This document shows positions 15,997 to 44,522 of a stretch of DNA of 64,000 bases, piece after piece. Below the pieces are notes generated by a model, which did no database searches, was not told where the DNA came from, and saw nothing but the letters and a program-made list of their open reading frames with translations. The stretch's first letter is position 1. The number at the start of each line of letters is the position of its first letter. This DNA comes from Phormidium tanganyikae FI6-MK23 (GTDB taxonomy: Bacteria > Cyanobacteriota > Cyanobacteriia > Leptolyngbyales > Leptolyngbyaceae): assembly GCA_019359175.1 (NCBI GenBank), contig JAHHHU010000004.1, forward strand, positions 248,001 to 312,000, in the 5' to 3' direction. Position numbers and translations under genes: made by a program.

Positions 15997-16977
<981 letters not shown>

Positions 16978-20563: not shown

Positions 20564-20579
20564 GCCGTGGTTTACGTGT

Positions 20580-20858: not shown

Positions 20859-20939
20859 CACTGTAATTGAGGAATGAGCTAACAGATTCAAGTCATCCTA
20901 TTTTCCGCTATACTCATCCCCATGTCTAGAACACTACCT

Positions 20940-21014: not shown

Positions 21015-21147
21015 ATTGAAGCAGAATGTCTAACAGACCAGGACTCAACTCGTGACCATCACCCCTGCATCACAGGAGTAAATCCATCTTCTGAATCAGT
21101 CTCCTTGCCGTCTCCAAATGTTAGCCTCAGACTAGGAGGATAGGGCA

Positions 21148-22150: not shown

Positions 22151-22672
22151 TCAGCCCTCTACCTCGCTGCTTTCGAGCCTCAGCGAAAAGTGATTCGCTT
22201 CTAGCTTTTGATTTAGCGAATCTAGTTCCTCAGATGTGAAGTCACCGATCGCTGCAATCCCGCGCATGGCTTCCCGCAGTTCAGCGATCGCAAATGCTAA
22301 ATCCGGTAAGCTCTGGGTCGAAGTCAACGTGCCATAGAGCAACGTCCACGCTGCATTTGCTCTGACCGTTCGACCGGCAGCAGTAAACGACTTTTGCCAA
22401 ATCAGAGTACCGCGCAGGGAATCGATCAGTCCCGTCCAGTTTTCAGTCACAGGCGCGGTGAACTCAGGAAGCGTCCACTGATTGTTTTGCCAGAAATGCA
22501 AATCTGAAGGCCGCGCGGGTTTGATTTGAATTTCAAACCCATCCCAGAAAAGCATCTCAGCAGGCAAGTCATCGACTCCTTTAACAACTTGAAAACCCGC
22601 AAGCTCCAATGTCGGATCGTCGGTCGTGCCACAGATTTGATTTTGATTCTTTTGGATTAGAAAGTACTGCAT
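22151..22672 (-). CDS. Prophage tail-fibre-region protein, unknown
   Basis: A 173-aa protein, last gene of the structural module. The first ~70 residues (MQYFLIQKNQNQICGTTDDP) resemble small fibre-associated proteins. The remainder is predicted helical, with LPDLAFAIAELREAMRG. No family is recognised. Its place right after the glycine-rich fibre suggests a fibre-assembly chaperone or an accessory fibre tip. It lies next to transposase debris but appears intact. Confidence 0.55.
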   Translation of the reverse strand: MQYFLIQKNQNQICGTTDDPTLELAGFQVVKGVDDLPAEMLFWDGFEIQIKPARPSDLHFWQNNQWTLPEFTAPVTENWTGLIDSLRGTLIWQKSFTAAGRTVRANAAWTLLYGTLTSTQSLPDLAFAIAELREAMRGIAAIGDFTSEELDSLNQKLEANHFSLRLESSEVEG

Positions 22673-22679: not shown

Positions 22680-24029
22680 TTAGATTGGGATGATGTTTCT
22701 GACCTGAAGCTGCCCTACACTGCCAGCCTGTCCCGGCCCGCCGCCCAGCCCAGCAAAACTGCCGCCACTAACAGAGCCGTTTACCGCAGTCGCAATCGTG
22801 GAAACCCCGCCGTTTAGGTTGATTGCCGCTCCGGTCAAATTCACCGTTGGAGCCGTCGTCACGAGCCATCCACCGCCACCGCCACCCGCCGTTTGAAAGG
22901 TTGAGGCATCAGGATATCCCGTTCCCCCGTCACCGCCCTTGACTGATAGCTGAGATCCGGCAGACGCTACGACCGATCTCAGGCTCTTGAGCCAGATCAA
23001 GCCACCTGAGCCACCGCCCGCGCCCGTGATCAAGCCACCTGGAAACCCAGTCAAAGCCCCTCCTGCAAAGTTCAATACTGAGGAGTTACCCTGACCATTT
23101 TCACCATTCGCCGTAATTGTCCCAGTGACCGTGATCGTGCCTGCCGCTTCGATAATCAAGCAGCCGCCGCCATTGCCGCCGCGCGGAGTTCTCATCGCGA
23201 TGCCTCCAGCCAGATTCGCAATGAAGCTCCCAGCCCCGCCACTTCCCACGGGCGAGGTAAAGTAAGAGTAAGTATTTGTGCTTATAGAGTTAACTGAAGC
23301 CCCGCCCCCGACTCCAGCGCCGATATAGTTCGGATAGCTTTGCGGAGCGAAAACGCCGTAATGTCCGCTCCCGCCCGCAATCGGCGCAGTCACGACTACA
23401 TTTCCGCTGATCGTCACATTGCCTGAGCAAAAGAGGGTTGCACCGCCCGCAATCGTTAACGTCGCACCCGCGCTCACCGTGAAATTCTGAAACCAGTTCT
23501 CGCCACTCAGGGTCGCTGTGCCCGAAGAGAGCGTATAACTTCCTTGCTCGCCTGATCCACCAAAGATTCGGATGGACTGCGCGATCGGTAGAACCTGAAA
23601 GCGTGGGCGAAGATCTTCGACTGCCCCAACAATCTGAACGTTATTCGTGAGAGCTCTTGCCAACATCACACTCCGCACCGGGCGAATTGTGGAGGATTGC
23701 ACCAATCCGGCTGAGTTAACGAAGACAAAACCCGTGCTGTTGGGAGCTAAACTAAGCTGCCCCGGCGCGATCGTTAAAACCTCTCCGCTCGGCAGCACTA
23801 CGACTCCGCCCTCATAGTCCACGACCAGCCCATTCGCAGCGGTGACTCGCAAGACATTTTGAAAAGCAGTCCAGTTCGCTTTGATATTTCCCGGCGCATT
23901 GCTCAAGGCACTGTCGGTTAGAGGTGGATAGCTGCCATCCACATCCGTGCCGTTGAAGTCGATCGCTTGCATTGCATTGAACCAGGCTGCCGGAACCCGT
24001 CGCCCTCGACTGAAATTCGTCTTCGCCAT
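22680..24029 (-). CDS. Glycine-rich tail fibre / adhesin-like protein
   Basis: A 449-aa protein. Residues 1-150 (RVPAAWFNAMQAIDFNG... ) look like a fibre attachment domain. From about residue 155 a parallel beta repeat begins (ATLTIAGGATLFCSGNVTISG). The C-terminal half alternates hydrophobic strands with glycine-rich loops (GGAGGSGGLIW, TAGGGGGGWLVTT, GGNGGGCLI). Such glycine runs recall the polyglycine-helix sandwiches of phage adhesins such as T-even gp38, which determine host range. That similarity is by composition only. It is predicted to bind the host surface. It follows the GH74-like spike, so enzyme and adhesin are adjacent. Confidence 0.65.
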   Translation of the reverse strand: MAKTNFSRGRRVPAAWFNAMQAIDFNGTDVDGSYPPLTDSALSNAPGNIKANWTAFQNVLRVTAANGLVVDYEGGVVVLPSGEVLTIAPGQLSLAPNSTGFVFVNSAGLVQSSTIRPVRSVMLARALTNNVQIVGAVEDLRPRFQVLPIAQSIRIFGGSGEQGSYTLSSGTATLSGENWFQNFTVSAGATLTIAGGATLFCSGNVTISGNVVVTAPIAGGSGHYGVFAPQSYPNYIGAGVGGGASVNSISTNTYSYFTSPVGSGGAGSFIANLAGGIAMRTPRGGNGGGCLIIEAAGTITVTGTITANGENGQGNSSVLNFAGGALTGFPGGLITGAGGGSGGLIWLKSLRSVVASAGSQLSVKGGDGGTGYPDASTFQTAGGGGGGWLVTTAPTVNLTGAAINLNGGVSTIATAVNGSVSGGSFAGLGGGPGQAGSVGQLQVRNIIPI

Positions 24030-24126: not shown

Positions 24127-26400
24127 TCAAGGTGCAGGAGTCGGTAAAGTCGTACCGGGAAGCAATGCGTACTGGTGTGCTCTCCCGCTAGCCGAGATGT
24201 AAAGTAGATTGGCAATGCGAGGGTCAGCGGCTAAATGCACCATGCCGTTAATCCGAGTCAACGCCGGATCAGAAACCCGCTGCCAAGTTTGCCCTAGGTC
24301 AACCGAGCGATACAAGGCATCCTGAGTCGCACCGCCGACCCGACCAAAGATGTAAACGTAGTAAGGAATTGAACCTTCACCCACTCCGATCGCCACAAAC
24401 TCTGCGGAGTCTACCGTACTGACTACCCCCACGGTTTGACCGCCATCTGTGGAGCGCCACAATTTATTCGTCTTGGAGTCGAGTTGTTCCGTATCTTTCG
24501 CAAACGAGAACCAGACATCATTATCAGCAAATGGGTTAGGCGCGATCGTCACCTTAATTCGATAGGTGGGAAACTGTCCTCGGCTGGTTCGCGTCCAGGT
24601 TGCCCCAGCATCATTACTCACGTACAACAAACCTTCCCAAGTTGACTCAAGATAGTAGAATCGCCCGTTAATTCGCTTGTCGGATTCAAGTACTCCTGAG
24701 CGCACTCTGGCATTGATATTGTTCGCCCAACTTGAAAACAAATTTGCTCCTGTCCCAGCCATCTTACAGATTTGCCAGGTGTCGCCCCCATCGATGGTGT
24801 AGTGGGGGTTGAAGTTACGCGGAACCCAGACCATGCGATCTGTGCCTCGACGATCTACGGCAATTTGACCCGCATGACCGCGCTCGGTTAACTGGGATGT
24901 TGGATTAAGTCGAGTCGGCACAGAGCCAAATGCTTGCCAGGTTTCTCCATGGTCGTTGGTTTTTCCATACATCGGAATCCAATCTACAACCTGGTGATAC
25001 CCGACAAAAGCAGCTTGTTGAGGATTCGCCCACGCCACATCGATCGCGCTACAGCCCGTCGTCGAATCCAGCGGAGCAGGGAAGGTTGCTGTACCTTCTG
25101 GGACAATCCAAGTCGGTGTTCCAGCGGGTACAGGAATTCCAGTCGCTGCAATGTTCTTCGTAGCCGGGGCATCCAAGTTACTTTGCTTAAACCCCAACTT
25201 ATCCATTCCGGCGGTGTAAATGTAAAAGTTATTTAGCGGGGTGGGAACTGGACGAGTCATTACGCCCACAAACTGCTCCAGACCCAACATTTCCCACGCC
25301 CAAGTCGGAACTGCCAGATTCGAGTTAAACGACCGTGCGACTCCAAACCCGTTTGTGAACCAAGCGTTATTCGCATTGGCGGGATCAAAAGCAATTGAGA
25401 CGACAAGGTTATTTGCGAGCGTTGTGGTCATGTAGCCGGGAGCCGAAACGTTCTGGGGAAACCGCAAGTCAGCATCGCAGCGCGTCCAGTTTACCCCTTG
25501 GTTATTTGACTTCCAGATTTTCGTGTTTCCTGAAACAAGAATCTGATTCCCATCTGGGTGAACAGCAATTCCAGACAATGCACCTGCCCCAGGAGGTGTT
25601 ACATTTGTCCAGGCTCCATCTCGATAGCGCTGGAGGTTTCCACGCGAGCCAAACTGGTTTCGTTCCCCAAACACGCAGTATAAATCGCCGTTCGCAGCAA
25701 TTGCAGCTCTTAACGGCTCCATCTGAATGTTACCGGTTGTCGTATTGGAAATATTTGTCCAAGTTCCCCCAACCGTAGACCGTCGCCATACTCCAGAGCC
25801 ATAAGCGCCAACGTAAACAACCGGAGTTTCGACACCGCTTGTTCCTGAAGATTTGTCGTGCAGAACCCAAGTAAATCCAGGCTTGTCGGTGCGGGTTAAA
25901 CCACCCCAAAACAGGGTTGTCGGTAGGGGCAAACCCGTAACTTGTTCCCAAGCCGCGCTGCCTCGCTTCACCCATACCCCGTCATTCCGAGAGCCGAACC
26001 AAATATTCTCAGGCTTATTCGGATCAACGGCTAACCGCTCACCCGTCTCTGCTCGAAACTCACCATTCGGTTCAATTTTGACGTTCGATGCTTGTAGACC
26101 CGTGGGTGTCCAGTTCACACCTTTGTCTGTGGATCTCCAAACTTCTCCAATGTAGCTCCAGACATTACCATCGTTTGTATTCTGTTTCCAAAAAGCCGCG
26201 TAGACAATATTGGGATTGGTTGGGTCAACCGCAAGCGATTCGACTCCTTCCGCGCGGGCGTTTGTTGGAAACCTCTCAAACATATAGATCCAGTCGAGGT
26301 CTGTTCGATCAAAGCGGTAAACACCGCCCGTATCAGTTCGGACGTACAAATCGAAAGGAGCTAGGGGTGAAATACTAATTCCGGTGACGAATCCTGACAT
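24127..26400 (-). CDS. GH74-like double beta-propeller protein, putative tail spike depolymerase
   Basis: A 757-aa protein built of two beta-propellers with repeated Asp-box-like blades (VWRSTDKGVNWT, IWKSNNQGVNWT, LYVSNDAGATWTRTS, LWRSTDGGQTV, YRSVDLGQTWQ). The opening FVTGISISP ... LYVRTDTGGVYRFD and the block GERLAVDPNKPENIWFGSRNDGVW are hallmarks of GH74 xyloglucanases. The two catalytic aspartates of GH74 appear conserved: Asp23 in RTDTGG, and Asp400 in AGMDKLGF following GLEQFVGVM, equivalent to the GDIGGF motif. No signal peptide is present, which fits a virion protein. It lies among tail fibre genes, so I infer a spike enzyme that cuts a beta-glucan-like or other host exopolysaccharide. 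Substrate not established. Confidence 0.78.
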   Translation of the reverse strand: MSGFVTGISISPLAPFDLYVRTDTGGVYRFDRTDLDWIYMFERFPTNARAEGVESLAVDPTNPNIVYAAFWKQNTNDGNVWSYIGEVWRSTDKGVNWTPTGLQASNVKIEPNGEFRAETGERLAVDPNKPENIWFGSRNDGVWVKRGSAAWEQVTGLPLPTTLFWGGLTRTDKPGFTWVLHDKSSGTSGVETPVVYVGAYGSGVWRRSTVGGTWTNISNTTTGNIQMEPLRAAIAANGDLYCVFGERNQFGSRGNLQRYRDGAWTNVTPPGAGALSGIAVHPDGNQILVSGNTKIWKSNNQGVNWTRCDADLRFPQNVSAPGYMTTTLANNLVVSIAFDPANANNAWFTNGFGVARSFNSNLAVPTWAWEMLGLEQFVGVMTRPVPTPLNNFYIYTAGMDKLGFKQSNLDAPATKNIAATGIPVPAGTPTWIVPEGTATFPAPLDSTTGCSAIDVAWANPQQAAFVGYHQVVDWIPMYGKTNDHGETWQAFGSVPTRLNPTSQLTERGHAGQIAVDRRGTDRMVWVPRNFNPHYTIDGGDTWQICKMAGTGANLFSSWANNINARVRSGVLESDKRINGRFYYLESTWEGLLYVSNDAGATWTRTSRGQFPTYRIKVTIAPNPFADNDVWFSFAKDTEQLDSKTNKLWRSTDGGQTVGVVSTVDSAEFVAIGVGEGSIPYYVYIFGRVGGATQDALYRSVDLGQTWQRVSDPALTRINGMVHLAADPRIANLLYISASGRAHQYALLPGTTLPTPAP

Positions 26401-26426: not shown

Positions 26427-27086
26427 TTAGACAATAAAAACGGGCTGCGAACTGCCGTTCGATCGCAACTTTGTATTCGTCGAGTAGAACCAGAAATTGG
26501 GTGTCGGTGCGGGGGTCGGGCTTGTTGATCCAGAAGCTCCCGCTTCGCCCCTCGCAGCAATCAATTGCCAGAACACCGAGTTACTGCTCGGCGTGTTACC
26601 CTTCGTTGGATTCGAATTTACATAGAGATACGAGCCACCACCAAAGGATACTAACGACCCTTCTGAGTAAAAAATAGCTGGGCTGTAGTTTCCTTCTGGT
26701 CTAAACCACCGCAGCGTAGATGCATATCCAGGGTCACTCACGAGCAGTTGAGCGATTCTTCGTAAGCCTGCGGGAAGTAAATCTGTCTGAGCGCCGATTG
26801 GAATCAATTCCCAAAAGTCACACTCCACCACATTCGGCACAATCGCACTAAAAGCGGGAATAACAAGTCCTCTGCTATCTCGAATCTCAAAGCGGTAAGT
26901 AATTTGACTCGTCTCGCTTTGCGGTAATGTAATATCGATTTCGCCCGCTGCTGAAATTTGATAGTCACGCGGCTTTGGAACTAGCATCGTGTCACCATCG
27001 AGTAGCGGTGCGTCTAGAGTCACTCTCAGCGACCCCCCAAACGCAACGCCCCCCGAATCGGTTAACTTTCCCTTAATTATCGTCAT
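26427..27086 (-). CDS. Prophage tail fibre / baseplate-attached protein
   Basis: A 219-aa protein whose start overlaps the upstream tail-protein-I stop (ATGA-type overlap). The N-terminal ~100 residues are a beta-rich domain (GKLTDSGGVAFGGSLRVTLDAP). A region near 145-175 (YSEGSLVSFGGGSYLYVNSNPTKGN) resembles small carbohydrate-binding modules (ChiC/ChtBD3-like) seen in tail fibres. The end is rich in Pro/Ser/Thr. It probably links the baseplate to the spike encoded next. No enzymatic motif. Confidence 0.55.
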   Translation of the reverse strand: MTIIKGKLTDSGGVAFGGSLRVTLDAPLLDGDTMLVPKPRDYQISAAGEIDITLPQSETSQITYRFEIRDSRGLVIPAFSAIVPNVVECDFWELIPIGAQTDLLPAGLRRIAQLLVSDPGYASTLRWFRPEGNYSPAIFYSEGSLVSFGGGSYLYVNSNPTKGNTPSSNSVFWQLIAARGEAGASGSTSPTPAPTPNFWFYSTNTKLRSNGSSQPVFIV

Positions 27087-27688
27087 GGTAAAATCGCATC
27101 CTCTTCATCAAAGATTGGGTCGCCGCAACAGCTAAAATCCGCATAAAATCCGTCGTAAACCACATCGGAATCGCAGTAAGCCGCGCCGTAGAGTCGGTTC
27201 AGTTTTCGCGCCAAATTAAACTCAGATCCAAGTTCTAAAGGCAGTCTCACAAAGTAGCGATATTCAGGTTCACCAAGGTCAGCGTCTAAGACACTGATCT
27301 CCGCGAGGAATTCAGTTTCTTGCCAGACATCAAAGCGATCGCCTAAAAAGAGTTGCAGCACAAATTCCAGTACTTGTTGAGTTCCTCGCCGCCGCCAGAG
27401 ATAGTTCAACCCATTGCGAATCAAGACTCGCTTGGTTGCGGGAGCCCAGGTTGAATCCCAGTAGTCCCCTGTAAAGCCGCTCAACGCTGCGAGATAATCT
27501 AGCCACTGTTCATCGCAAGTATCAGGATCGAGTTGGCGCAGCGCTACGTCATCAATTCGGGCTTTAAGTTCAATCAGAAATCGATCCCAAGTGCCGGAAA
27601 GCCAACCGCTTACTCCGTTCTCTTGATAGACTTCCGGTAGATTGCCAGTGAAAGGAACCCCGTCTCGCCAAGCTTTAGGATCAGACAT
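27083..27688 (-). CDS. Phage tail protein I (P2 gpI-like)
   Basis: A 201-aa protein. The pattern LPEVYQENG..GWLSGTWDRFLIELKARIDDV ... LDPDTCDEQWLDYLAALSGF ... LIRNGLNYLWRRRGTQQVLEFVL is typical of P2 gpI/phage_tail_P2_I proteins, which cap the baseplate wedge and anchor fibres. It overlaps the baseplate J gene by 8 bp, the usual gpJ-gpI order. Unusual is a Cys pair and acidic C-terminus (SCCGDPIFDEEDAILP). Confidence 0.8.
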   Translation of the reverse strand: MSDPKAWRDGVPFTGNLPEVYQENGVSGWLSGTWDRFLIELKARIDDVALRQLDPDTCDEQWLDYLAALSGFTGDYWDSTWAPATKRVLIRNGLNYLWRRRGTQQVLEFVLQLFLGDRFDVWQETEFLAEISVLDADLGEPEYRYFVRLPLELGSEFNLARKLNRLYGAAYCDSDVVYDGFYADFSCCGDPIFDEEDAILP

Positions 27689-28934
27689 CAGGAACCCCTC
27701 CTGTCATCGAATTATCCTCACCGAATGCGTGGGTGTAGAAGATCTGATCTTGGGTAAATGCTTCAAAATAGCCGCCTGTGAGTCGGGGGAGCGACTTTGC
27801 ATTCGGCAGCAGGATATCTTGACCTAGCCCGTTCAACACAACCGAGTTAACGCGCCGCACCCCGAGAACATTCCGCAGTACGAATTCCAGGTCATTGAGG
27901 TTGACGTAATCGGATTCTGCATAGGTTGTAGGGCTGAGAAAAGCTTGCAGAGCGCCGCGCATCTCATCGAAGACATCCTCTGGATCAAATCCGTCAAAGA
28001 TCTGAACAATCGCTTTGACTTCAATTTGAATGAGTTCGACTGGAGTGAAGTAGACCGTAGTTCCTAATGGAACCAATCCACTCAATCGGGCTTGGATATC
28101 ATTGCACTCAGCTTCACTCGGTAGAGACTGATCGCTCCTGACTCCGAATACATGAACGCTGCCGATTTGATAGGTAATACCGTCTGCGCCGATCAGCGGA
28201 AGTGCGATCGCTCGACTGCCTGACCCTAAGAAATCTTCTGCCACCCGTTCGTAGTCACTCTTGACGATCAAGGTATCGCGCCGCCGAATCGCTTCTAAGG
28301 CACGAGACTCAACCTGCTCCAGGGACTCAGGATTACTCCCGCCGAATGCTGCCTCTAAATTCCGAACTTCGCTTAAGTTGGCGTAAGGAACGGTGAACAA
28401 GGTTAATACCCCTGCGGGAACATTCCCGACTTCCCCGACCTGGGTGCATTCTGCAATCACTGATCCAGAACTGTTGCCGGGTGTGATAACTAAAGCTTCT
28501 AAGGTGACAAAGGTGAGATCGATGTCGTTCGAGCTAAGGAGTGTTGCATCCGGTCGCACCTCAAAGCCTGCTGGAATCTGATAGCTGCTTGTGATTGCGG
28601 TTGAGAGTATGAAGGTTAGTTCTACCCGCGCCCGCTGTCCGAGTGACCGCTGAACCCCCGCTAAACGAAGGTAAGCAACGGCTAAGGCTCTCGGTAGTTT
28701 GTTGACATACCAAAGGATTTCAGACCCTAGCCGCGCTAAAGTTCGATTGAAAACTGCTAAGGGATTGTGGGTCGTGGTATCGTTCAGCCGCCCGCCCGAT
28801 CGATTAAACCCATCGAGCATCGACTCCTCAGCCAGTTCTTCCTCATTTCGCGGGTCTAGAACCGGATAAGGAATCAAACTACCTTCATCACTGGAGTTTG
28901 TATTTGGATTAAATGTAACAGAGGTGTCGGTCAT
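27681..28934 (-). CDS. Baseplate protein J (gpJ/gp47-like)
   Basis: The start is placed at the ATG at 28934 (MTDTSVTFNPN), 15 codons inside the longest frame, because it overlaps the upstream stop as ATGA, the pattern used across this cluster. The protein is 417 aa. The central part FEVRPDATLLSS...ALVITPGNSSGSVIAECTQVGEVGNVPAGVLT and the RRDTLIVKSDYERVAEDFLG block are characteristic of Baseplate_J family members. It forms the wedge of the contractile baseplate with the gp25-like and gpI-like proteins. Confidence 0.88.
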   Translation of the reverse strand: MTDTSVTFNPNTNSSDEGSLIPYPVLDPRNEEELAEESMLDGFNRSGGRLNDTTTHNPLAVFNRTLARLGSEILWYVNKLPRALAVAYLRLAGVQRSLGQRARVELTFILSTAITSSYQIPAGFEVRPDATLLSSNDIDLTFVTLEALVITPGNSSGSVIAECTQVGEVGNVPAGVLTLFTVPYANLSEVRNLEAAFGGSNPESLEQVESRALEAIRRRDTLIVKSDYERVAEDFLGSGSRAIALPLIGADGITYQIGSVHVFGVRSDQSLPSEAECNDIQARLSGLVPLGTTVYFTPVELIQIEVKAIVQIFDGFDPEDVFDEMRGALQAFLSPTTYAESDYVNLNDLEFVLRNVLGVRRVNSVVLNGLGQDILLPNAKSLPRLTGGYFEAFTQDQIFYTHAFGEDNSMTGGVPDV

Positions 28935-29284
28935 AGTCGGAGGGAGATTGCGGGTTGAGGAATATTCGAGATCGACCAATCGATGCGGAGATCGAGCAAG
29001 CCGTTTTCACCGAATTGACCAGAGCAACGAATGTCCAGCGTTGGGTAGTCAGGTAACAGTAAGGCTCTTAATCGGGCTTCAGTATCTCGAACGATCGCGC
29101 CCGCATCAGGTAGGGAATCAAATAATCGATTTGGTACGCCATAGTTAGGCAAGGTTAAATACTCGCCCGGTTCAATCGTGAGAACGTGCATAATGGCATT
29201 TCTCACGACGTCTGAATCTTCAGACACCGCAAGCCCGCCGCCAGAGAGTTCTAGCGGGAATCGGATCGAACGAATGGTGGTCAT
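28931..29284 (-). CDS. Baseplate wedge protein (gp25/gpW-like)
   Basis: A 117-aa protein matching the GPW_gp25 family. It has the hallmark IMHVLTIEPGEYLTLPNYGVPNRLF, followed by LRALLLPDYPTLDI. In contractile tails this small protein bridges sheath and baseplate and is structurally lysozyme-like but not enzymatic. It overlaps gpV upstream (TGATG) and gpJ downstream (ATGA), so translation is coupled. Confidence 0.87.
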   Translation of the reverse strand: MTTIRSIRFPLELSGGGLAVSEDSDVVRNAIMHVLTIEPGEYLTLPNYGVPNRLFDSLPDAGAIVRDTEARLRALLLPDYPTLDIRCSGQFGENGLLDLRIDWSISNIPQPAISLRL

Positions 29285-29994
29285 CAGTAGCCTCGTTGAA
29301 CTAACGTATCGCCATCCGAATCGAGACCGCCCAAGGTCACAGCGGACTGACCGTTTAGCGTGAAATCAGCCAGGTTTACGATTTGAATCGCTGCACCATT
29401 CGCATCCCAAGCCCACTCCGCTCCGTCAGCACCTCCGCCCAACACCCATTTCTGACCAGAAGCCGCGCCTACCACGACAAAGCCTGCTTCATTTAGTTCT
29501 AAATAAGCGCCCGCCGTGTTCTGTAATCGGATCGACCTGCCGCAATCAATCGTGAAATCATCGCCTGTCGTAGTCTTGCTTTGCTGCTTAATGTCGATCT
29601 CAGACTTACCTTGAATCGTAGTCTTCACATCCCCGTCGATTTCTTGGTAGCTATCCAATGCGGCATCGCCTTTATCGAGTGCGGGGTTGGGACTATTGAT
29701 CACTGTGCCGAGGCAGATCAGCGCATGGGGATTCCCTTGGATCGCCCCGACTAAGACCGTTTGACCCACGCGCGGCAGCGGATCGTCGATACTGGGGCTT
29801 AACTGAAGTCTTCGTACCCAATCGCTTTCCAGCCCAGGTTTAGAAGCCAGAGTCACTTTGATGCGACGATTTCCAGTCGGGTCGCGATTCGAGGTAACGA
29901 CAGCTAGTTCTAGGTAGAGATTGCGCCCGTTTAACTCTGCTGCCGCCCGAGCCGCAACGTTGGCGTTATTGAGAGCATTGAAGATGTTATCCAT
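29284..29994 (-). CDS. Baseplate assembly protein V (gpV/gp5-VgrG OB-fold)
   Basis: A 236-aa protein. Residues ~20-100 form the OB-fold (NRRIKVTLASKPGLESDWVRRL ... PRVGQTVLVGAIQGNPHALICLG). A beta-helical needle region follows (YQEIDGDVKTTIQGKSEIDIKQQS, GRSIRLQNTAGAYLELNEAG). It would form the central spike that punctures the envelope. The C-terminus lacks an obvious HxH iron-binding tip or PAAR motif. It sits between the hub/lysin gene and the gp25-like gene. Confidence 0.82.
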   Translation of the reverse strand: MDNIFNALNNANVAARAAAELNGRNLYLELAVVTSNRDPTGNRRIKVTLASKPGLESDWVRRLQLSPSIDDPLPRVGQTVLVGAIQGNPHALICLGTVINSPNPALDKGDAALDSYQEIDGDVKTTIQGKSEIDIKQQSKTTTGDDFTIDCGRSIRLQNTAGAYLELNEAGFVVVGAASGQKWVLGGGADGAEWAWDANGAAIQIVNLADFTLNGQSAVTLGGLDSDGDTLVQRGY

Positions 29995-30018: not shown

Positions 30019-32301
30019 CTACCCTGCCATCGGAGGCGCACCTTCTTTGGGAAGGATGTCTCTGGGGTTAACTGAGACTTGCCCGCCTGGTCTTCTTACT
30101 TCAAAGTGGAGGTGAATTTGGTATTGATTCATCGTTTGTCCTGAGCCACCCCGGACTGCGATCTGAGACCCTTTAGTGACTCGTTGACCCTGTTGGACTT
30201 GGATCGAGGCGAGATGAGCGTACCAAGTCTCCCAACCGTCGTCGTGACGAATAATCACTAATTTTCCATAGTCATCAATCAATTCGTTCCGAGCCGTGAC
30301 AACTTGACCATCTCGGGCGGCGACGACTTGATCAGGGGTGTAGCCCCCGATATCCGTTCCGTGGTGCATTCTTCCGCGAGCATTTCCCCATTCGCAGCGA
30401 GGGCCGCAAGTGTTTCCAGTCATCGGCCACATCCACTCTCCCGGCGGAACGGGTTGAGAATTTGTTTGACCCTTCGCAACCGTGGTAAAACTCCCTTTGT
30501 TTAGCTCCTGCTCGGGAACCTTCAAATCTTGTGGAGAGAACGCCTGAATCTGCGATCGCAGACTGCCCAAGTCATAGTCATGAACAATCTGATCGATCAT
30601 CCAAATTCGATTAAACACCGGTCGGGGGTGTCCTGCGGTATTGAAAGCCGATGCCACATCTAGACGCAAAATTGCGGGAGTGGTGGGGATATCGAAGGTA
30701 CTGGGCAATGCCTTCACTCGCTTCAAGACATAACGAGTCGCTGCCCCTGCACTGGTGGGATTAGAAACGGGCGGTGGGGTGGATGCCCCTGTTGAACCCG
30801 GAGTTAAGGGTGTGGGCGCGTTCAGAATCGCAGTGAATTCTTGCTGTTCGCGTCGCCTCAGTTGTCGCTCTGGTTCTGACTGTAGCCGAGTGATCTGACC
30901 CGTCTGGGCATCAATCATCGTCTTGGCCTCATCTCGGACACTGCTCTCGCTCGAAGCGGTAAACTTTGTACTCGCATCTTGCACTTCTTGTAGCTGAGAG
31001 GTTGCTTGATCACTCAGCGACCACGTATCTAGTTCGCCGCCCAGGTAATACAAAATGAATCCTGTGTCGGTCGCAGGGGGGCGCGTGAAGATTAAGGTTC
31101 CTCCTTTGTCTGAGATCGAGAAGCCGTGAAACTGACATTCCCGCATCAGTAGCTGATAGTCGGTTAGCCCGGATTGATCCACATACTGCAATGTAATATT
31201 TGCCATTGCGGGATCAGTCTTGGCAGTTAAGCCATAAGCCGCCGCGACTCGTTGGGCAAGCTGGGTCAGAGTAATCGTCTTAAAGGCCGTGTTTCGCTTG
31301 ATCCGATTCATTGCCGCCCGAATCGATTGACCACTAAAAGTCGTTGTGCCCGCATGAGCAGTATCTGTCTTGGTATGAATAAATTCGGCTGTGAGTAACG
31401 TCCGGTTATTCTCAAACCCCAGGCGCACTTCGATCACTCGTCCCTTCGCTGACACTTCTTCTGCATCAGGGAGCTGTTGAGAGGAAGCGGTAGATGCCAC
31501 AGGTTGATTTGTCGAAGCGTTGGCTTGAACCCCGGGCAGTTGTTTCAGCCATTTTTGATAAAAGTTTTCATAGTCCTGCCGCCACAATCCGCCTTGAATA
31601 TTCGTATACGCGGTTTGACGATTGCTATCCGGTGTAGGCATCCAGCGATCAATTCCACCCGCACCCGTCCAGCCCTCTTTCATTCCTGAAACTAACAAAG
31701 TGGTGGAGACATCGGGGCGAAGTGCGAGATCGGGATTTCCTACTAAATCGAGTCCTAAACGACTGCCCCATTTGCGATAGTTATCTACACCTGTAATCTG
31801 AGCTAAACCGCGCCCGCCGTACTGCCCGAACTGCCCGCCCTCATTGTTATAAGCTTGGTGGTTGAAGGAACTCTCACCTTCTGCTACAGCTAAAAGAAAG
31901 GCGATCTTTTGGGGTGCGGTGATTCCTTGTCGTCGGGCTTCAGCAATGATGGCAGGAGGCACGTCAGCGATCGCACTGCTATTGGCTCCTGATAGTCCAG
32001 GATTTGTGGAAGATGCGCTAGGTTGAGAACTCTGTTCTGGAGGGAGTCCGCGAATCCCTTGTTCTCGGAACGTCGTCTCGATATACTTTGCCGCAATCTT
32101 GTTGTCGCGATCATTTAGCTTAACCGTGCAGCCGGAGGAGCGACTATTTCTAGATAACGTCACATTGGCACTGACTAAGATGCCGTCCCCGGTGCGAAAC
32201 GTATCGCCGCGACGATAATCCGCTGCACTGCTCAGATCCACATCATTCGCGTCTGAGATCGAGACTTGGCAATAGCCACAAATTAGTCTTTCACGCGCCA
32301 T
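30019..32301 (-). CDS. Tail hub protein fused to GH19-like lysozyme and M23 endopeptidase domains
   Basis: The start is chosen at the ATG at 32301, four codons inside the longest frame, because it overlaps the upstream stop (TGATG). This gives 760 aa. Residue numbers below count from the longer frame. Residues ~1-85 and ~290-620 look like a gpD/gp27-type hub (VIEVRLGFENNRTLLTAEF, ITLTQLAQRVAAAYGL). Inserted at ~115-265 is a muramidase/chitinase-like domain: AFLLAVAEGESSF, then GRGLAQITGVDNYRKWG and GNPDLAL, the GH19 endolysin pattern. The end (~625-750) is an M23 zinc peptidase with HHGTD, WYAHL and HLHFEV ligands. One virion protein could thus cut both glycan and peptide of peptidoglycan during DNA entry. 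Confidence 0.82.
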   Translation of the reverse strand: MARERLICGYCQVSISDANDVDLSSAADYRRGDTFRTGDGILVSANVTLSRNSRSSGCTVKLNDRDNKIAAKYIETTFREQGIRGLPPEQSSQPSASSTNPGLSGANSSAIADVPPAIIAEARRQGITAPQKIAFLLAVAEGESSFNHQAYNNEGGQFGQYGGRGLAQITGVDNYRKWGSRLGLDLVGNPDLALRPDVSTTLLVSGMKEGWTGAGGIDRWMPTPDSNRQTAYTNIQGGLWRQDYENFYQKWLKQLPGVQANASTNQPVASTASSQQLPDAEEVSAKGRVIEVRLGFENNRTLLTAEFIHTKTDTAHAGTTTFSGQSIRAAMNRIKRNTAFKTITLTQLAQRVAAAYGLTAKTDPAMANITLQYVDQSGLTDYQLLMRECQFHGFSISDKGGTLIFTRPPATDTGFILYYLGGELDTWSLSDQATSQLQEVQDASTKFTASSESSVRDEAKTMIDAQTGQITRLQSEPERQLRRREQQEFTAILNAPTPLTPGSTGASTPPPVSNPTSAGAATRYVLKRVKALPSTFDIPTTPAILRLDVASAFNTAGHPRPVFNRIWMIDQIVHDYDLGSLRSQIQAFSPQDLKVPEQELNKGSFTTVAKGQTNSQPVPPGEWMWPMTGNTCGPRCEWGNARGRMHHGTDIGGYTPDQVVAARDGQVVTARNELIDDYGKLVIIRHDDGWETWYAHLASIQVQQGQRVTKGSQIAVRGGSGQTMNQYQIHLHFEVRRPGGQVSVNPRDILPKEGAPPMAG

Positions 32302-32582
32302 CAGAATAACCACGAAATACGTTCGATTACAGACTTGAGTTTTTGAGTGCCATCCGCGAGAACGGTATCGACTTGCTGTTTGACTTGATCGACCTTGGCA
32401 TTAATCGCTGACACATTCTCCAGAGACTCTGGGGTGAACGTTCCGATCTCCGGTAAGATTCCCGCTGGAATCTCGAACGGCGCGACGTTTAACGCATCCA
32501 GCACTTCTCGATAGAATGTCGTAGAACCGAATCGCTCTAACGCAATCGATTCAAGGTTTTGGCTTAAAGGTTCCGCGCTCAT
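32301..32582 (-). CDS. Small tail protein, LysM/gpX-like
   Basis: A 93-aa protein. The first half (NLESIALERFGSTTFYREVLDALN...EIPAGILPEIGTF) follows the LysM-like layout of tail X proteins, in which a short domain follows the tube-initiator. The second half is a coiled coil (INAKVDQVKQQVDTVL). It overlaps the hub gene by one base (TGATG) and the preceding gene by 32 bp. It probably helps join tape measure, tube and hub. Confidence 0.6.
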   Translation of the reverse strand: MSAEPLSQNLESIALERFGSTTFYREVLDALNVAPFEIPAGILPEIGTFTPESLENVSAINAKVDQVKQQVDTVLADGTQKLKSVIERISWLF

Positions 32583-33330: not shown

Positions 33331-35469
33331 TTAGAGGCTCGACAGTTGATATTGATTCCAGCGTTGTTCGATCTGGTTCATGACTAAGTTCGCGAGTGAT
33401 TCTTCGTTCATACCCGGTGCGGGATTGACGACGATTTGGGGTGCGAAGGTTGAGCCGCCGCGCGTTCTTGTAGCAGAGACTAAACTGACGAGATCCCGCT
33501 GTTGAGCACGGTTGAGAATCGTTTCTGAGGTGTTGGCGATAGCGAGGTTAGAACCAGAGGGCATCAGTGCAGTTTCGCGGGCGATCGCACTAAATAGTGA
33601 ACCGACATTGAGACCTGCTGCATGGTTGGATACCGCTTGTCCCGTAACCATGCCTTTGACTGTCCCAATCGGGTTGGCAAGGAATCCTTTGATTCTTTCA
33701 ACAGAATCCTGGAACCAAGTCTGAACGGACTCTACGATTCTTTGGACGCTGTTTTGCACAGACCCGATAAAGCTCGTAAAGGTGCTGCCGATCGAGGTGA
33801 TGACTTTGTTGATCACGCCGCCGATCCAATCTTTTACTGAGTTGAAGGCATTTACCGCGCTGTCTTTAATCCAAGTCCAGGTGTTAGAAAACCACTGGGT
33901 AATCGCACTCCAATTATCGACAATGGCTTTTACAAGCCCCACAACGAGTAACCCTACACCCGCAGCAACCAAAACAGGGAATCCAACGGTCGCAGCCACT
34001 ACCGCTGCAATTGCAGCCGCAGTCGAAGAGGCTGCGAATGCGATGACAGCGGATGAGATGGCGGCGGCAAGGGCAACCCCAATCGCGTTAATCGCGAATG
34101 TAGCTAGAATTCCACCGAGAATTGCGAGTCCTGCTGTGACATACGTTGACCAATCCAGGTTCATCAGAAAGGAACCTAAACCCTTAAACGCCGCTCCGAT
34201 CCCCGTTCCAATACTGCTGAACAGTTTGCCATAGTCGATAGATGCCCCTGCTTGTCCCAGCTTCGCGAGTGCAGAGTCGATCAAATCCGCCAGGGTCTTT
34301 CCAATTTGTTCAGGCTTGAGGCGTTCACCAATATCCGATAAAGAAACTGAATCCAGTGCATCGGCGGCTCCCTTCGCCCAGGAAGTCACCGTCATGATGC
34401 CGTCATAGAGGGCTTTCATGGGATCAGTATTGAGACCCATACCGCGCAGCTTTTCACCGACTTCAGTAAAGAAACCGCTGCCTCCAAATAAAGACTCGAG
34501 GAGAGAGGCAAACCCATCTATTACGGTGCGAGACTTACCGTTCAAGGTAGTCACTTCTTTGAGGAACCCAAACACTCCTGTATCTTGATCGAATAATGCG
34601 TGTTGAATCGTTTCAATTTGAGTCCCAGCGGTCGCCTCAAGGTCACGAAGCATCTCTGGGGGTGCGAGTCCTTTTGTCGCTGCCTCAAAGATCTTCACCC
34701 GCTGCTGGAGTGTGATACCAAATCAACTTTTCATTGCAACAGATCCTCGCCCCCTAAATCCCCCATCCTGGGGGCCTTTGAGTAGTCTCCATAGTCCATC
34801 TGTTGCAGTCTATTTTCAATTTGGTATGAGGTCTTCAATTTTCCTTCCCTCACCGTAGATCTTTTTCGAGGCTTTTTGAAGTTCGCCCAGCAAGCCCGGC
34901 ATTCGCTCATTCAGCTTCAGAATACTCAATTCACTGTCAGACGCACCCTCAGCAAACTTGGTAAAGAAGAGTTGAATGTCTGAGTTTTGGATACCGCTGG
35001 CGGGGTCTTTTAATAGTCCGAGTGTCTTCGTCAGTGATAACGCTTGCTCTTTGAATGCTTTCTCATCAAAGATGCCATCGACCGAATTCGCTTTGATTAG
35101 GGTATCCGAGATCGCTAAACCTAAGTCCTTGTAGCCCTGAGTATTCCCCGGCAACGACGCTGCCATCGCCCCAAACTCTTTGTTCAGATCCTTGACCAAC
35201 TTCGTGCCATAGGCATAGTCTTTGTTGGTCATCGCTCCGAATTGACCCGCGAGTTTAATCACGGATTGCTGCATATCAGAGGCTTCAGAAAAGCGGTTCG
35301 TTAATGCACCCACCGCCCCAGCCGCTTGCGAAAGGGCGCTCGTATACATATTCCCTAGAAAGACCGCGCCCGCACCTAACCCTCGTGTCTGTGACCCCAA
35401 CCCTTTTAGAATTGGAGATAATTTGTCCAGTGCATCTAAAATCACTGTGATTTTGTTCTGTCCAGACAT
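33331..35469 (-). pseudogene. Tail tape-measure protein gene, split by a MITE
   Basis: The N-terminal frame (35469 to 34816) encodes 217 aa and the C-terminal frame (34698 to 33331) 455 aa. Between them lies a 111-bp element that brings an in-frame TGA stop after EDLIPN. Removing the element plus one TGA target copy restores a single 674-codon frame through EDLTLQQRVKIFEAA. The protein has the tape-measure pattern: an N-terminal helical chaperone-binding part, then hydrophobic segments (~420-490: LAILGGILATFAINAIGVALAA) and amphipathic repeats. Tape-measure length sets tail length and the protein is essential. This interrupted copy should therefore block normal tail assembly, unless the halves cooperate or the element excises. 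Confidence 0.88.
34716..34826. mobile_element. 111-bp MITE inserted in the tape-measure gene
   Basis: Both ends read TACCAAAT, then 11 unmatched bases, then TGCAACAGAT, in opposite orientation. The flanks carry the 3-bp duplication TGA (34713-34715 and 34827-34829). A second hairpin, CCCCCATCCTGGGGG, lies inside. No coding capacity. It inserts in the minus-strand gene so that the target duplication keeps frame but the element supplies a stop. The parent transposase family is not identified. Confidence 0.9.
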
Positions 35470-36042: not shown

Positions 36043-36483
36043 TTAGCTGCGTGTGTATTCGCCAGGAGCGATCGTGATCACGAGTTTGCTAGTGTCGGCG
36101 CTACTGCGATTGGCTTGAGCGACTTCTACACCGATGACCAAACAACCAAATAAGTTGAAGCCTTCGCCAACGGGTCGTGGGTCATCACTGCTATCGACGG
36201 GGACAACTGAAAGTTTGATTTCTTGTTCGTTGTCGCGCAGTCGTTCATATGCTGCCAGGATGGGTCGGTGAACGCGCGGGTCAAACTCGACGGAAATCGT
36301 GATGTCTTCTATCTCGACCATCCCTGCGACGGTGTACATTCGTCGCCGCACACCGTCGGGATATTTCGAGGTTTGCTTTTTCTCCTTGATGCCGCTGAAC
36401 TCACTAAAGTAAGCGTCCGGGAGTGAAGGAGAGGATACTAAATAGTGACTCTGTGTGATCGGCTTTAATCGTCGTAGTGCCAT
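36043..36483 (-). CDS. Major tail tube protein
   Basis: A 146-aa protein of the T4 gp19-like tube family. It has SHYLVSSPSLPDAYFSEFSGIKEKKQTSKYPDGVRRRMYTVAGMVEIEDITISVEFDP layout (quoted as positions ~15-72) and a strand-rich end. It forms the inner tube surrounded by the sheath encoded 31 bp upstream. Length fits the family (140-170 aa). Confidence 0.82.
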   Translation of the reverse strand: MALRRLKPITQSHYLVSSPSLPDAYFSEFSGIKEKKQTSKYPDGVRRRMYTVAGMVEIEDITISVEFDPRVHRPILAAYERLRDNEQEIKLSVVPVDSSDDPRPVGEGFNLFGCLVIGVEVAQANRSSADTSKLVITIAPGEYTRS

Positions 36484-36514
36484 GTTTGATTACCGGGTAA
36501 ATTTGAAGAGGAGT

Positions 36515-37687
36515 CTAGTCAGAGAGGCGAGCAGTAAATGTACCTACCGGGACTCGAACCGTCCGGCCAACAATCTTTTCGACTGGGGCTGAGGGAATGA
36601 GATAGGCATCGAATCGCAGGATTCCAGCTTCGGTATCGAGGGCGGGATTATTCGTTTCATCACACACGACTAGAAAAGAGTCGCCTGGGTTTACGCCAAA
36701 CAATGCACCCGATTGCCAGATTCGATAAAGCACTTCCTCGGCGGTGTCTTTGACTCGGCGGTAGATGATGCCTCGACCTTCGTTAAGATCGAATAACAGG
36801 ATGTCGAATGCTTCTCGGAGCGTGCGTTTAACCACGTTAAAAGTGACGCGCTGGTTGATGAATCGGAAGTACTCATTGGTGGAACGAGTGCGAGCGCCCC
36901 ACACGACTAACTGACCATTGGAATGCCGCTTCAGTAAGTTGATTCCGAGGGGGTTCGCCACATCTTGTTCAGAGCGAGTGTAGTATTTCGTAAGTCCTTT
37001 GACTCCTCGAATGGGGTAACGTAAACCCGCTGGAGCTTGAGCAAATCCTTGAGCCCGATATCGTCGGGTTGCAACACCCGCGACCGCTGGTGAGGGCGGT
37101 AGCTCTTTATCCTCTTGAGTGATCACCCAAGGCGAATAGTAAGCGGTGTGTCCGGCTGCTGAGACATAAGGAACGCCTTCAGTTTGCAGTTCGCCCGTGG
37201 TGTCGGTTGCCTTGGAACAATCTAGGAGGGCGACCCAATCGAAGTTCTCATCTTCTGCAATGTCGCGCATCTTACTGGCAACGGAAAGTTTATCCGACGC
37301 AGTGGTTAGACGCTCGAATGCTTGCGGTGCAAGTAGAAATCCCTGCGGCTGATCCTCATTAAATGCAACCCCAAGCGTTGCGACAAATTCAGAGGCTACG
37401 GTGAGATTGGGAGCGGCGGCTGCGACTCGTGTAAAGTACAGGATGCCTTGTGGGTCATTGTCGAAGTAAAGCTTGACGTAATCCGTTGAGAGCGATGCGC
37501 CGAATTGATTCGTAAAGTCAGTCGGGGATACAACTTGAGTCGGTGTGTTCACATCCCCAATCGTGGATGTACCGACCATATAAACGTGCCCGAAGGTGGC
37601 AATCTCAACGGGGATATAACCGTCCTGATCCTCTACGATGTAAACGCCGGGGCTGAGAAACTGCGAGAGTGAAATTGTAGTAGCCAT
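36515..37687 (-). CDS. Phage tail sheath protein
   Basis: A 390-aa protein of the phage sheath family. It begins LSQFLSPGVYIVEDQDG, the typical PGVY start, and contains WGARTRSTN.EYFRFINQRVTF with the C-terminal block of sheath domains (VPVGTFTARLSD). It would form the contractile outer sheath. This gene is the clearest evidence that the prophage is myovirus-like rather than siphovirus-like. Confidence 0.9.
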   Translation of the reverse strand: MATTISLSQFLSPGVYIVEDQDGYIPVEIATFGHVYMVGTSTIGDVNTPTQVVSPTDFTNQFGASLSTDYVKLYFDNDPQGILYFTRVAAAAPNLTVASEFVATLGVAFNEDQPQGFLLAPQAFERLTTASDKLSVASKMRDIAEDENFDWVALLDCSKATDTTGELQTEGVPYVSAAGHTAYYSPWVITQEDKELPPSPAVAGVATRRYRAQGFAQAPAGLRYPIRGVKGLTKYYTRSEQDVANPLGINLLKRHSNGQLVVWGARTRSTNEYFRFINQRVTFNVVKRTLREAFDILLFDLNEGRGIIYRRVKDTAEEVLYRIWQSGALFGVNPGDSFLVVCDETNNPALDTEAGILRFDAYLIPSAPVEKIVGRTVRVPVGTFTARLSD

Positions 37688-39510: not shown

Positions 39511-40533
39511 TTACTGGACTCTGAGCAAAGCACACGCACTCTTGCGATTCTGCAACTGGAACTGAGCTTGCACCGAGAGAATCATATCGATCGCATGAGG
39601 GTTCGTTTGCGGCATTCTGGTGAGTAGGATGTTTAACCCTTGAGCATTGACCACTTGAGAATCGCCACCCGGCATCGTGCTCAATGCGGGGGCAAGTGCA
39701 TAGGTGTGCAGGTATAAGTCGCTCGTGTTCAAGAAGTAAATGGAGCGGTCTGGGGTGTAGATGCTCTTATGGACTTCGCGATCTTTATAGGTCAAGCCTG
39801 TGAAGGACAAGTCAAACGAACCCCCCATGCGGTTAACGGCTAGGCGCGTCTCGAAGATTTTTTCCATCGCGTCGGCTAAGTCAAAGGTCGTCAACACATA
39901 ATCGAAATTGCCGCCGAGTTTGCCTTGTCCCGTCGTCGCCGCCCGTAGAAGGTCAGTCGTGAGCGCTCTGTTTGCCCCTGCTGTTTCGTTGTGTGATGTC
40001 CACCCTGGAAACGCAACTCCATCAATCTCTGCATATCGATTGGTAGCGGGCGGGCCTGTAACTGCATTCGACATTGCTCGGTTCAGACCAACGATTCCAT
40101 GACTCGCATTCGAGCCGTCGCCGGTATAAAGCAGAGTCTCCAACTGCTTCATCAATGCGTCCATACCCGCTTCAAGCTTGCCCCGATACAAGTTCCGCAG
40201 TGCTTGAGGTGCAATTCGTAAAGCTTGCGTTGCTTGGGTCAAGTCGATTGAGAATTTGTGTTCTAAGACGCGAGAACCGATCGGCAAGGAGGCTTGTAAG
40301 TTGGTATCGGTGGTGCTGTTTTGGTTCGGCGTTTCAGAAGTGGCGCGACCGTAAGTGTTTCCAGTTCCGACCGACACGGGCCAGTGAATCGCGGTCTGGT
40401 AAGCGTCACGCTTTTGAACTCTATTCAGTAGCGGATACTCTTTGATTTTGGTTTCAGCAATCCCCGATTGGATTTCTGAGCGCAACAAGTCTAACGGGGC
40501 AAGCGTTTCGGTAGAGAAAATTAATTCAGGCAT
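39511..40533 (-). CDS. Major capsid protein (HK97 fold)
   Basis: A 340-aa protein with an N-arm (residues 1-40), an E-loop region containing GRATSETPNQN, and an A-domain-like end rich in beta strands (LNILLTRMPQTNPHAIDMILSVQAQFQLQNRKSACALLRV). Its place after the scaffold-like gene and before the neck proteins fits. Interestingly, a strong AAGGAGG lies about 31 nt upstream of the ATG, much farther than usual, with no in-frame start nearer to it. No prohead protease gene is visible in the cluster. Confidence 0.8.
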   Translation of the reverse strand: MPELIFSTETLAPLDLLRSEIQSGIAETKIKEYPLLNRVQKRDAYQTAIHWPVSVGTGNTYGRATSETPNQNSTTDTNLQASLPIGSRVLEHKFSIDLTQATQALRIAPQALRNLYRGKLEAGMDALMKQLETLLYTGDGSNASHGIVGLNRAMSNAVTGPPATNRYAEIDGVAFPGWTSHNETAGANRALTTDLLRAATTGQGKLGGNFDYVLTTFDLADAMEKIFETRLAVNRMGGSFDLSFTGLTYKDREVHKSIYTPDRSIYFLNTSDLYLHTYALAPALSTMPGGDSQVVNAQGLNILLTRMPQTNPHAIDMILSVQAQFQLQNRKSACALLRVQ

Positions 40534-40625
40534 ATTGACGTAATCTTGTGTTGAATGGTGAGTTCCTCCTTGTATGAGGTGTCCGGGGATTTACGAGCTT
40601 TCCCGGTAGCTCAGTTTGCAAGAAG

Positions 40626-41228
40626 CTAGGCGTACATCTGGGCTTGCAGCGCGGCGTATTGTTCATCGAGTGAAAGTTCTTTGCCGCCGCTCGGAGGAGT
40701 TGGCTTGGCGGATGAAGCGGAACCTGAACCGGATGTCGGGCTGGGCGGGATGAAAATTTTCCCTTCTTCTGAGGCGAGATAGTCCGTGAAGGTTTGAGCC
40801 AAAGGTTTAACAGAATCGCCGCCGAGGTCAACATACCAATCGGTGTTTTCCTTCTTCAACTTGTCACCATATTCGGCGGTGAATAGCTTGAGTAAAGTTC
40901 CTTTGTGTTGGGTGGGGGAACCTGCGACCAATTGAGCGATCGCGGCATCGCGGGCTGATGCGAAGGCCTGCTTGTCTTTCTCACTCACTTGCGTGGTCAA
41001 GTCACTGATTTGTTGCTGTAGCGCTTTGAGGGAGAGTCGAGGGGTCGCTTCACCACTTTCATCAAGGTCAGCGGGCGATTCAGGGGGTTGTTTCTCTGAG
41101 ACCTTTTTGATGTCTCTTTGAAGCGCCGCCGCCAAGCCTTTATTTTTGTGATCGACTTCCGCGAGTAATGTGGTCTTTACTTCTTCAAAGCACGTTGCGA
41201 AAAGAGCCTTAACTTCTTCTTCTGTCAT
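40626..41228 (-). CDS. Putative scaffolding protein
   Basis: A 200-aa protein, acidic and helical. A coiled coil at ~65-95 (LSLKALQQQISDLTTQVSEKDKQAF) is followed by a flexible Pro/Ser/Gly segment and an acidic tail (SLDEQYAALQAQMYA). Position between portal and capsid and this composition are typical of phage scaffolds. No family signature, so the call is by context. Confidence 0.65.
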   Translation of the reverse strand: MTEEEVKALFATCFEEVKTTLLAEVDHKNKGLAAALQRDIKKVSEKQPPESPADLDESGEATPRLSLKALQQQISDLTTQVSEKDKQAFASARDAAIAQLVAGSPTQHKGTLLKLFTAEYGDKLKKENTDWYVDLGGDSVKPLAQTFTDYLASEEGKIFIPPSPTSGSGSASSAKPTPPSGGKELSLDEQYAALQAQMYA

Positions 41229-41300
41229 GGGGATTAATTCCGATGTGGGATATCTGCTAGGGATTGCTTGCAGTGGAGCTATCTGGATTCGTTCCAGTGG

Positions 41301-44080: not shown

Positions 44081-44522
44081 CGCTTTGATCTGGCGTAGCG
44101 AGTCCAATCTCAAATCGGAAGGAAGGATTGATTTCGCCCTCGCTTAGACCCAAGACGCGATCTAATAATTTTGAATCGGGGATGATTTGTTCTTCTTTGA
44201 CGAGAACAACCTTGCGACCTTTTCGATCCAGAACCTCTTGTCGGGTGGTTCGGTAACACTGACGTTTCAGTACGTCATCGATATATTCATTCGCCGCCGC
44301 GACTCGATCCCAGGCTTTCTGTTTGAGTTTCGCTGCGTATTGCGCTCGTGCAGCCGTTACAGCCGCAGAAAACTCCTCTTTATCCACCATCCAAGCATAA
44401 AAAGTCGTATGAGCGATACCTACCCCTTCATAGGCAATACGGTCTACCCCTGTCTCCGCAATCAGTTCACAGATCTGATTTACCGTCTCAGGGTTATAAC
44501 GGGGTTTTCTTCCACCAGGCAT
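44067..44522 (-). CDS. Terminase small subunit
   Basis: A 151-aa protein. The N-terminal ~60 residues are a helix-turn-helix (VNQICELIAETGVDRIAYEGVGIAHTTFYAWMV) of the kind used by small terminases to recognise phage DNA. Oligomerisation helices follow (AAVTAARAQYAAKLKQKAWDRVAAANEYI). It overlaps the large subunit gene. First structural gene of the module. Confidence 0.82.
   Translation of the reverse strand: MPGGRKPRYNPETVNQICELIAETGVDRIAYEGVGIAHTTFYAWMVDKEEFSAAVTAARAQYAAKLKQKAWDRVAAANEYIDDVLKRQCYRTTRQEVLDRKGRKVVLVKEEQIIPDSKLLDRVLGLSEGEINPSFRFEIGLATPDQSDDEP

Follow-up and report, generated by a model that had tools for sequence, protein, structure and literature searches.

Enzymes of family GH74 hydrolyse beta-1,4-glucan backbones by an inverting mechanism that depends on a pair of aspartates, and are familiar from organisms that degrade plant polysaccharides. 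In Xgh74A, D70 is presumably the base and D480 the acid. The best comparisons for the protein described here are the GH74 endo-xyloglucanases Xgh74A (2cn2/2cn3), PoGH74 (6mgj), ClGH74a (6p2m) and XccXeg74 (7kn8). It resembles them in full-length sequence, in its predicted tandem propellers and in the Asp pair, and differs from them in having no leader, lacking the first strand, showing remodelled subsites and being encoded in a phage tail operon.

Propeller depolymerases are already known as a class in phages. For example, the parts of the reports drawn on here describe the endosialidase of phage K1F as a GH58 enzyme with a six-bladed Asp-box propeller (PMC2716378), and DepoScope recognizes an n-bladed propeller class of phage depolymerases (PMC11326577). 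The likeness would lie in the use of an Asp-box propeller glycosidase on a surface polysaccharide. The K1F enzyme has one six-bladed propeller, whereas the protein studied here has two predicted propellers, belongs to another family and carries no recognized anchor domain. GH74 in viral contigs is likewise not wholly unreported: the portion of a cold-seep metagenome study used here places GH74 among viral carbohydrate-active auxiliary genes with unidentified hosts (PMC8319345). Both cases involve a GH74 gene on a viral contig; the cold-seep gene is a listed auxiliary gene, whereas the present one lies in a tail operon and comes with a tree, a fold and a cleft analysis. What is new here is the cyanobacterial kinship of the protein, a second GH74 gene in a tail operon, the lack of a single phage clade, the presence of other enzymes in the same cassette, and the changed cleft.

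Prophage setting of the gene

The window, i.e., the whole stretch of DNA analysed, comprises 64,000 nucleotides of Phormidium tanganyikae FI6-MK23. The host is a cyanobacterium, since PsaA and PsaB are present in its genome. The prophage features in the window are as follows.

39511..44522, minus strand: head and packaging genes (major head protein, portal, terminase large and small subunits; ORF scan)
36043..37687, minus strand: tail tube and contractile tail sheath (ORF scan)
33331..35469, minus strand: tape-measure gene, split into two ORFs in the window (a single ORF of 666 aa in the sister record L151)
30019..32313, minus strand: gpD-like tail protein, also matching peptidase and endolysin families (PHROG search)
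29284..29994, minus strand: gpV-like baseplate assembly protein (PHROG search)
28931..29284, minus strand: gpW-like baseplate protein (baseplate protein, 6.4e-4)
27681..28979, minus strand: gpJ-like baseplate wedge protein (PHROG, 1.5e-32)
27083..27688, minus strand: gpI-like tail protein (Tail_P2_I family match)
26427..27086, minus strand: 219-aa tail fibre, conserved in its N-terminal part and ending in a short unique C-terminal stretch (compared with related prophages)
24127..26400, minus strand: GH74-like protein of 757 aa, predicted double propeller (ORF, sequence search, predicted model)
22680..24029, minus strand: 449-aa Gly-rich tail-collar-like protein, downstream of the GH74 gene (PHROG tail collar, 8.6e-7; homologues in related prophages)
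22151..22672, minus strand: 173-aa protein, the final gene of the tail run (ORF; related prophages)

In the direction of transcription, the order is terminase, portal, major head protein, sheath, tube, tape measure, baseplate D/V/W/J/I, fibre, GH74, collar and the 173-aa protein, with a gap of 26 nt between the fibre and GH74 genes on the same strand. Location in a tail or baseplate gene run is a mark of phage tail depolymerases; it is seen here and in a second case, the prophage L036. An earlier note, made from the sequence alone, had placed the gene among baseplate and fibre genes of a phage transcription unit in a cyanobacterium, and all of this is borne out. A chromosomal transcription unit is ruled out by the tail genes on both flanks. 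None of 91 neighbourhoods of cellular GH74 genes (80 genome contigs, 9 further genome stretches and 2 plasmids) matched any of 16 other phage proteins of the window at E 1e-3, a search that divergent tail genes would escape.

The tape-measure gene is broken by in-frame stops in the window, and no integrase was found among the ORFs scanned (those left of 52.7 kb); for these reasons the prophage is probably defective or decayed. The idea of a domesticated particle kept throughout the genus was also considered, and is ruled out by the low identity of the sheath matches and the rarity of gpJ. A match to the sheath was found in 33 of 58 genomes, the window's own included, with five of the seven same-genus genomes among them. 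Identities were 24–36% except in one genome (G009), which matched in two pieces at 38% and 47%.

On the head side, the first recognized host gene is that of ferrochelatase at 47365. The tail-side border (20117–21867) holds a two-ORF IS-like transposase, recognized by eye, and a GDSL esterase, both near-identical in the IMG/VR record L002. A tRNA scan of the window returned none. A Wzx/Wzy/Wzc-type exopolysaccharide cluster, which includes several glycosyltransferases and a GH39-like protein, occupies 3299–18973 and stops about 3 kb from the last tail gene of the prophage. This adjoining cluster suggests production of such polymers by the host; it is no pointer to their being the target.

Sequence and predicted fold

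The ORF opens with ATG and has no internal stops. In a single-sequence search, its product matched solved GH74 enzymes across the full length (2cn2, E 1.6e-46), a value that rules out chance or composition as the source of the match, and the alignment with 6mgj covers query residues 2–745. With a 47-sequence profile the match to 2cn2 reached E 8.6e-250 and the first 17 solved matches were all GH74, an identity that we assume for some of these entries. Similarity thus runs along the whole GH74 catalytic module. Pfam gave only Sortilin-Vps10 (2.8e-13) and BNR-type Asp-box families, which agrees with the BNR-type blades described in the earlier note. NCBIfam gave only matches below their cut-offs, and no PHROG family matched at E 0.01.

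The underlying alignment (A2) consists of the window protein, P0001, and 46 of 86 relatives; near-duplicates, long fusions, one X-containing row and others, for brevity, were left out. A single-sequence scan of genome contigs found no relative, and a second scan of them did. This gene is the only GH74-like one found in the genome of the window, and none was found in seven same-genus genomes at E 0.001.

An AlphaFold2 model built from the 47-row alignment (pLDDT 86.5, pTM 0.88) superposes overall on GH74 crystal structures, which argues for the two tandem seven-bladed propellers of this family. Foldseek rows 1–25 were GH74 entries. In a second structural comparison the best 17 rows were GH74 (Z 40.4–45.3, rmsd 2.2–3.3 Angstrom over 639–668 residues), followed by 6p2k, described as an ancestral GH74, at Z 28.7. 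The double propeller that the earlier note had read from the letters is thus supported by the predicted model. A domain of a polysaccharide-cleaving family, another mark of tail depolymerases, is indicated by this predicted fold together with the putative catalytic pair.

Catalytic pair and binding cleft

Three codons are central to the comparison with characterised enzymes.

26332..26334, minus strand: codon of D23, which aligns with catalytic D70 of Xgh74A (position computed from the ORF start)
25204..25206, minus strand: codon of M399, at the -1 position, G465 in Xanthomonas GH74 (alignment)
25201..25203, minus strand: codon of D400, which aligns with catalytic D480 of Xgh74A (position computed from the ORF start)

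D23 and D400 are invariant in 47 of 47 aligned rows, and their assignment as the GH74 catalytic pair, already made in the earlier note, is supported by alignment. Among the solved enzymes, 2cn3 has Ala at the D70 place in the phmmer alignment, and the acid of 6mgj is unpaired with D400 there and paired with it in the multiple alignments.

The residues that recognize xyloglucan were taken as named in the parts of PMC8245568 and PMC10317168 drawn on here, and the role of G465 at -1 from the former. A check of chain numbering against the same part of PMC8245568 agreed for nine of nine residues named for XccXeg74 and for both Trp of ClGH74a. By alignment, W126 of the -4 subsite is replaced by D77, Y128 of -3 by Q73, W396 of +1 by L332, and G465 of -1 by M399. 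The assignments of D77 and L332 are less sure, because the loop that contains D77 has pLDDT below 50 and the alignment around L332 is gapped. The segment carrying the paired Trp residues of ClGH74a and Xgh74A, treated here as the +3/+5 platform, is absent. The -5 position is still aromatic (Y613). Cellular relatives show changes of this sort too: of their 41 rows, 20 have Gly at -1 and 22 have Trp at +1, and in the nearest cyanobacterial kin Q or H stands at -1 and L or G at +1.

The aromatic and Arg subsites from -4 to +5 and the Gly at -1 that mark xyloglucan-specific GH74 enzymes therefore do not appear as a set in the aligned sequence. Since most of the named subsite residues are changed, xyloglucan is an unlikely substrate, and the protein is probably not a xyloglucanase. 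Fold, catalytic pair and the aromatic residue at -5 do match those of the characterised enzymes, and a functional xyloglucanase of their kind is nevertheless very improbable, given the changes at -4, -3, +1 and -1 and the missing paired-Trp segment. In addition, we know of no reason why a phage of cyanobacteria should encounter xyloglucan.

The missing subsites might also reflect a loss of activity. Propellers often serve as binding platforms, and a catalytically dead propeller acting solely as a polysaccharide-binding adhesin would explain why most of the xyloglucan-contact residues are changed or missing. However, both catalytic Asp are present in six of six phage rows, even though the four besides L002 share merely 23–27% identity with P0001, and we regard a dead propeller as distinctly unlikely. 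The protein is probably a glycanase that carries the GH74 catalytic pair on a different binding surface. For the depolymerase proposed in the earlier note, this means that the GH74-type fold and pair stand, while substrates of the xyloglucan type are unlikely.

N-terminus and cellular kin

P0001 has two residues before the column of the first conserved Gly (G3), consistent with the absence of a signal peptide noted earlier. The leader and the first propeller strand of its relatives are absent. In contrast, 39 of 41 cellular rows of A2 have at least 32 residues ahead of this Gly, leaders being scored by eye. The two exceptions, L077 and L092, with 0 and 6 residues, begin no more than 110 bases from a contig end. 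An N-terminal virion anchor is usual, not universal, in phage tail depolymerases; none is recognizable here from the sequence.

The nearest kin are leader-bearing GH74-like proteins of cyanobacteria, with 34–41% identity. They come from Goleter, Scytonema, Rhizonema, Dulcicalothrix, Calothrix and Mastigocoleus (L038–L045, L047), which we take to be heterocystous genera, and from four further genomes of the class (L153–L156). They have the TGER and D-K/M/T-I/L-G-F motifs in common with the window protein, and differ from it in being 827–910 aa long with 59–99 residues ahead of the first conserved Gly. Around L038–L045 and L047, nothing matched the tail proteins of the window. Among 388 genomes drawn from the class, 27 matched at E 1e-20, its own included; four others in that draw, L153–L156, which may overlap with the genomes listed by genus, show 39–41% identity and 62–88 residues ahead of the Gly.

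In a quick, unrooted tree of 50 rows, the window protein and its counterpart in L002 are sister to the GH74-like proteins of Scytonema, Goleter, Mastigocoleus, Dulcicalothrix and Calothrix (SH-aLRT 99). The window gene thus looks captured, since its closest kin are leader-bearing cyanobacterial proteins, and capture was probably from cyanobacteria by phage. This direction is deduced from the leaders of the cellular proteins and their broad distribution, because an unrooted tree cannot separate gain from loss.

The other phage proteins fall elsewhere in the tree. L033, L035 and L037 form a separate clade (100), and L036 stands apart near proteins of Nostoc and Moorena (support 86), on a long branch that leaves its place unsure. 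A single phage GH74 clade is rejected by an AU test on six phage rows (132 log-likelihood units worse, p-AU 1e-107), performed on this quick tree with the group named from context. The phage label requires three changes on the tree, and the starred branches force at least two. Because the phage GH74 proteins are not one clade, it is likely that phages captured GH74 more than once.

GH74 in other phages and viral contigs

A profile-guided scan of 2.9 million viral contigs, a lower bound because conserved peptides were required, found at least six GH74 loci on five contigs. One of these, L036, is a distantly related prophage; it has counterparts of V, W, J, I, D, fibre, collar and sheath as well as an integrase-like ORF recognized by eye. 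Its GH74 protein (837 aa, 23% identity to the window protein) is encoded on the same strand, amid fibre-like genes, four genes after the collar. Its predicted model (pLDDT 79.6) matches GH74 with Z 40.8–45.5. At L036:10176–10352, the protein has a C-terminal tail of LLRED-type repeats with low model confidence, possibly a virion attachment or assembly piece.

L033, L034/L035 and L037 are viral contigs according to the IMG/VR classing; L034 and L035 are opposite ends of one 45-kb contig. The catalytic Asp pair is intact in the GH74-like proteins of L033, L035 and L037. In L158 (G546), a long frame has a GH74 domain at its C-terminus, preceded by at least about 500 residues of other sequence.

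Among 50,697 phage records, a GH74 match was found only in one unverified 4.9-kb gut scaffold, whose GH74 groups with cellular proteins in the tree. When searched against phage records and viral contigs, the L036 and L037 proteins found only their own contigs and this scaffold. Of the 50 BFVD models listed, none matched the model along its whole length (best TM 0.31 by query length, compared to 0.77 for GH74 in the PDB). The parts surveyed of the open-licence PMC literature on GH74 or xyloglucanases and phages, prophages, depolymerases or propeller tailspikes yielded no GH74 tail protein, and no GH74 lead emerged from literature on depolymerases of cyanophages, hydrolases of cyanobacterial prophages and sheath glucanases. 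The family was thus fairly called unfamiliar as a phage spike in the earlier note, as far as PHROG families and phage records go; as a gene of viral contigs it is on record in the portion of PMC8319345 cited above.

That auxiliary gene bears on another explanation, an active GH74-type enzyme that works outside the virion, either made late and released at lysis or serving as an auxiliary gene for using or loosening polysaccharide. Besides the cold-seep gene, in as much of that study as was drawn on, the lack of a virion anchor in P0001 speaks for it, as do L033, L035 and L037, where GH74 occurs in viral contigs and tail position is not established. However, the cellular leader is gone, the gene is enclosed by those for fibre and collar, and in L036 a GH74 gene is again found in a tail operon with fibre-like neighbours. 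An enzyme acting outside the virion is therefore considered unlikely, if the least unlikely of the alternatives.

Tail cassettes of related prophages

Of 386 genomes from the phylum, six had a gpJ match at E 1e-20, the window's own included, which gives five related prophage regions. GH74 was found in none of the five stretches, and it is therefore rare in the lineage. The search of other phage tails proposed in the earlier note has accordingly turned up a different GH74 gene in the tail operon of L036 and none in these relatives. The fibre and collar homologues are directly adjacent in four of the five (L135, L143, L144 and L146). In two, other carbohydrate-active tail genes lie between gpI and the fibre: a 1270-aa protein with CBM4_9 and GH26 (L143:13147–16959), and a 788-aa protein with a HylP hyaluronidase domain (L135:11841–14207). 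Both could be depolymerases, to judge from their domains. The enzyme gene is upstream of the fibre in L143 and L135, downstream of it in the window and after the collar in L036; because these positions differ, the prophages have a cassette in common and no single fixed slot. Homologues of the fibre in related prophages range from 242 to 670 aa, and the fibres of the window and L002 are the shortest (219 aa). The fibre of L146 ends with a C1q-like domain, and L145 has a CBM5/12 match below its cut-off.

A probable tail-associated depolymerase

With moderate confidence, the protein is read as a tail-associated GH74-type depolymerase for cyanobacterial exopolysaccharide. A cyanobacterial myovirus would have captured the GH74 gene of a secreted or lipid-anchored cyanobacterial enzyme, and the gene would have been placed among the tail-fibre genes with loss of its leader. 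The protein may then form a separate head at the tip of the tail, docked non-covalently, probably on the short 219-aa fibre, a candidate adaptor, or on the baseplate. There it would cut a beta-linked backbone of the host exopolysaccharide or sheath through the inverting Asp/Asp chemistry of its family, and cleavage would let the contractile tail reach the outer membrane. Since the prophage is probably defective, the window gene would be a relic of an active lineage, or an allele reservoir for one.

A more elaborate version seems quite improbable. It holds that phages use GH74 double propellers as plug-in tail heads and took them repeatedly from glycanases secreted by bacteria. In this cyanophage lineage the head would be a separate chain, the unique proline-rich stalk and C-terminal peptide of the 219-aa fibre would supply the lost strand, and heads would be swapped without gene fusion.

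If the depolymerase reading is right, a two-propeller inverting glycanase joins the tools of phages against surface polysaccharides, with a traceable group of cellular kin and probably more than one capture. It would offer a handle on the chemistry of cyanobacterial sheaths and exopolysaccharides, for which, to our knowledge, few specific enzymes are available. It would also provide a case in which the exchange of enzymes within tail cassettes (GH74, GH26 with CBM, hyaluronidase) can be tested.

The sister copy

L002 has the same gene order as the window and a GH74 protein with 93% identity. The flanking esterase and transposase are common to both, and L002 is therefore the same insertion in a related strain, not an independent one. 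Between the two, the GH74 genes show dS 0.319 and dN/dS 0.126, in a comparison of one pair by a simple counting method. For 10 other genes, including the flanking esterase, dS is 0.000–0.175; dN/dS of the neighbours, where defined, is 0.051–0.295, so that the GH74 value is not below every one. In 300-base windows, identity is 0.84–0.95 within the GH74 gene, 0.91–0.98 in the flanking sequence (0.6 kb on the downstream side, 2 kb on the upstream side), and 0.957–1.0 farther out. This pattern fits allele exchange at the GH74 locus, with the protein under purifying selection.
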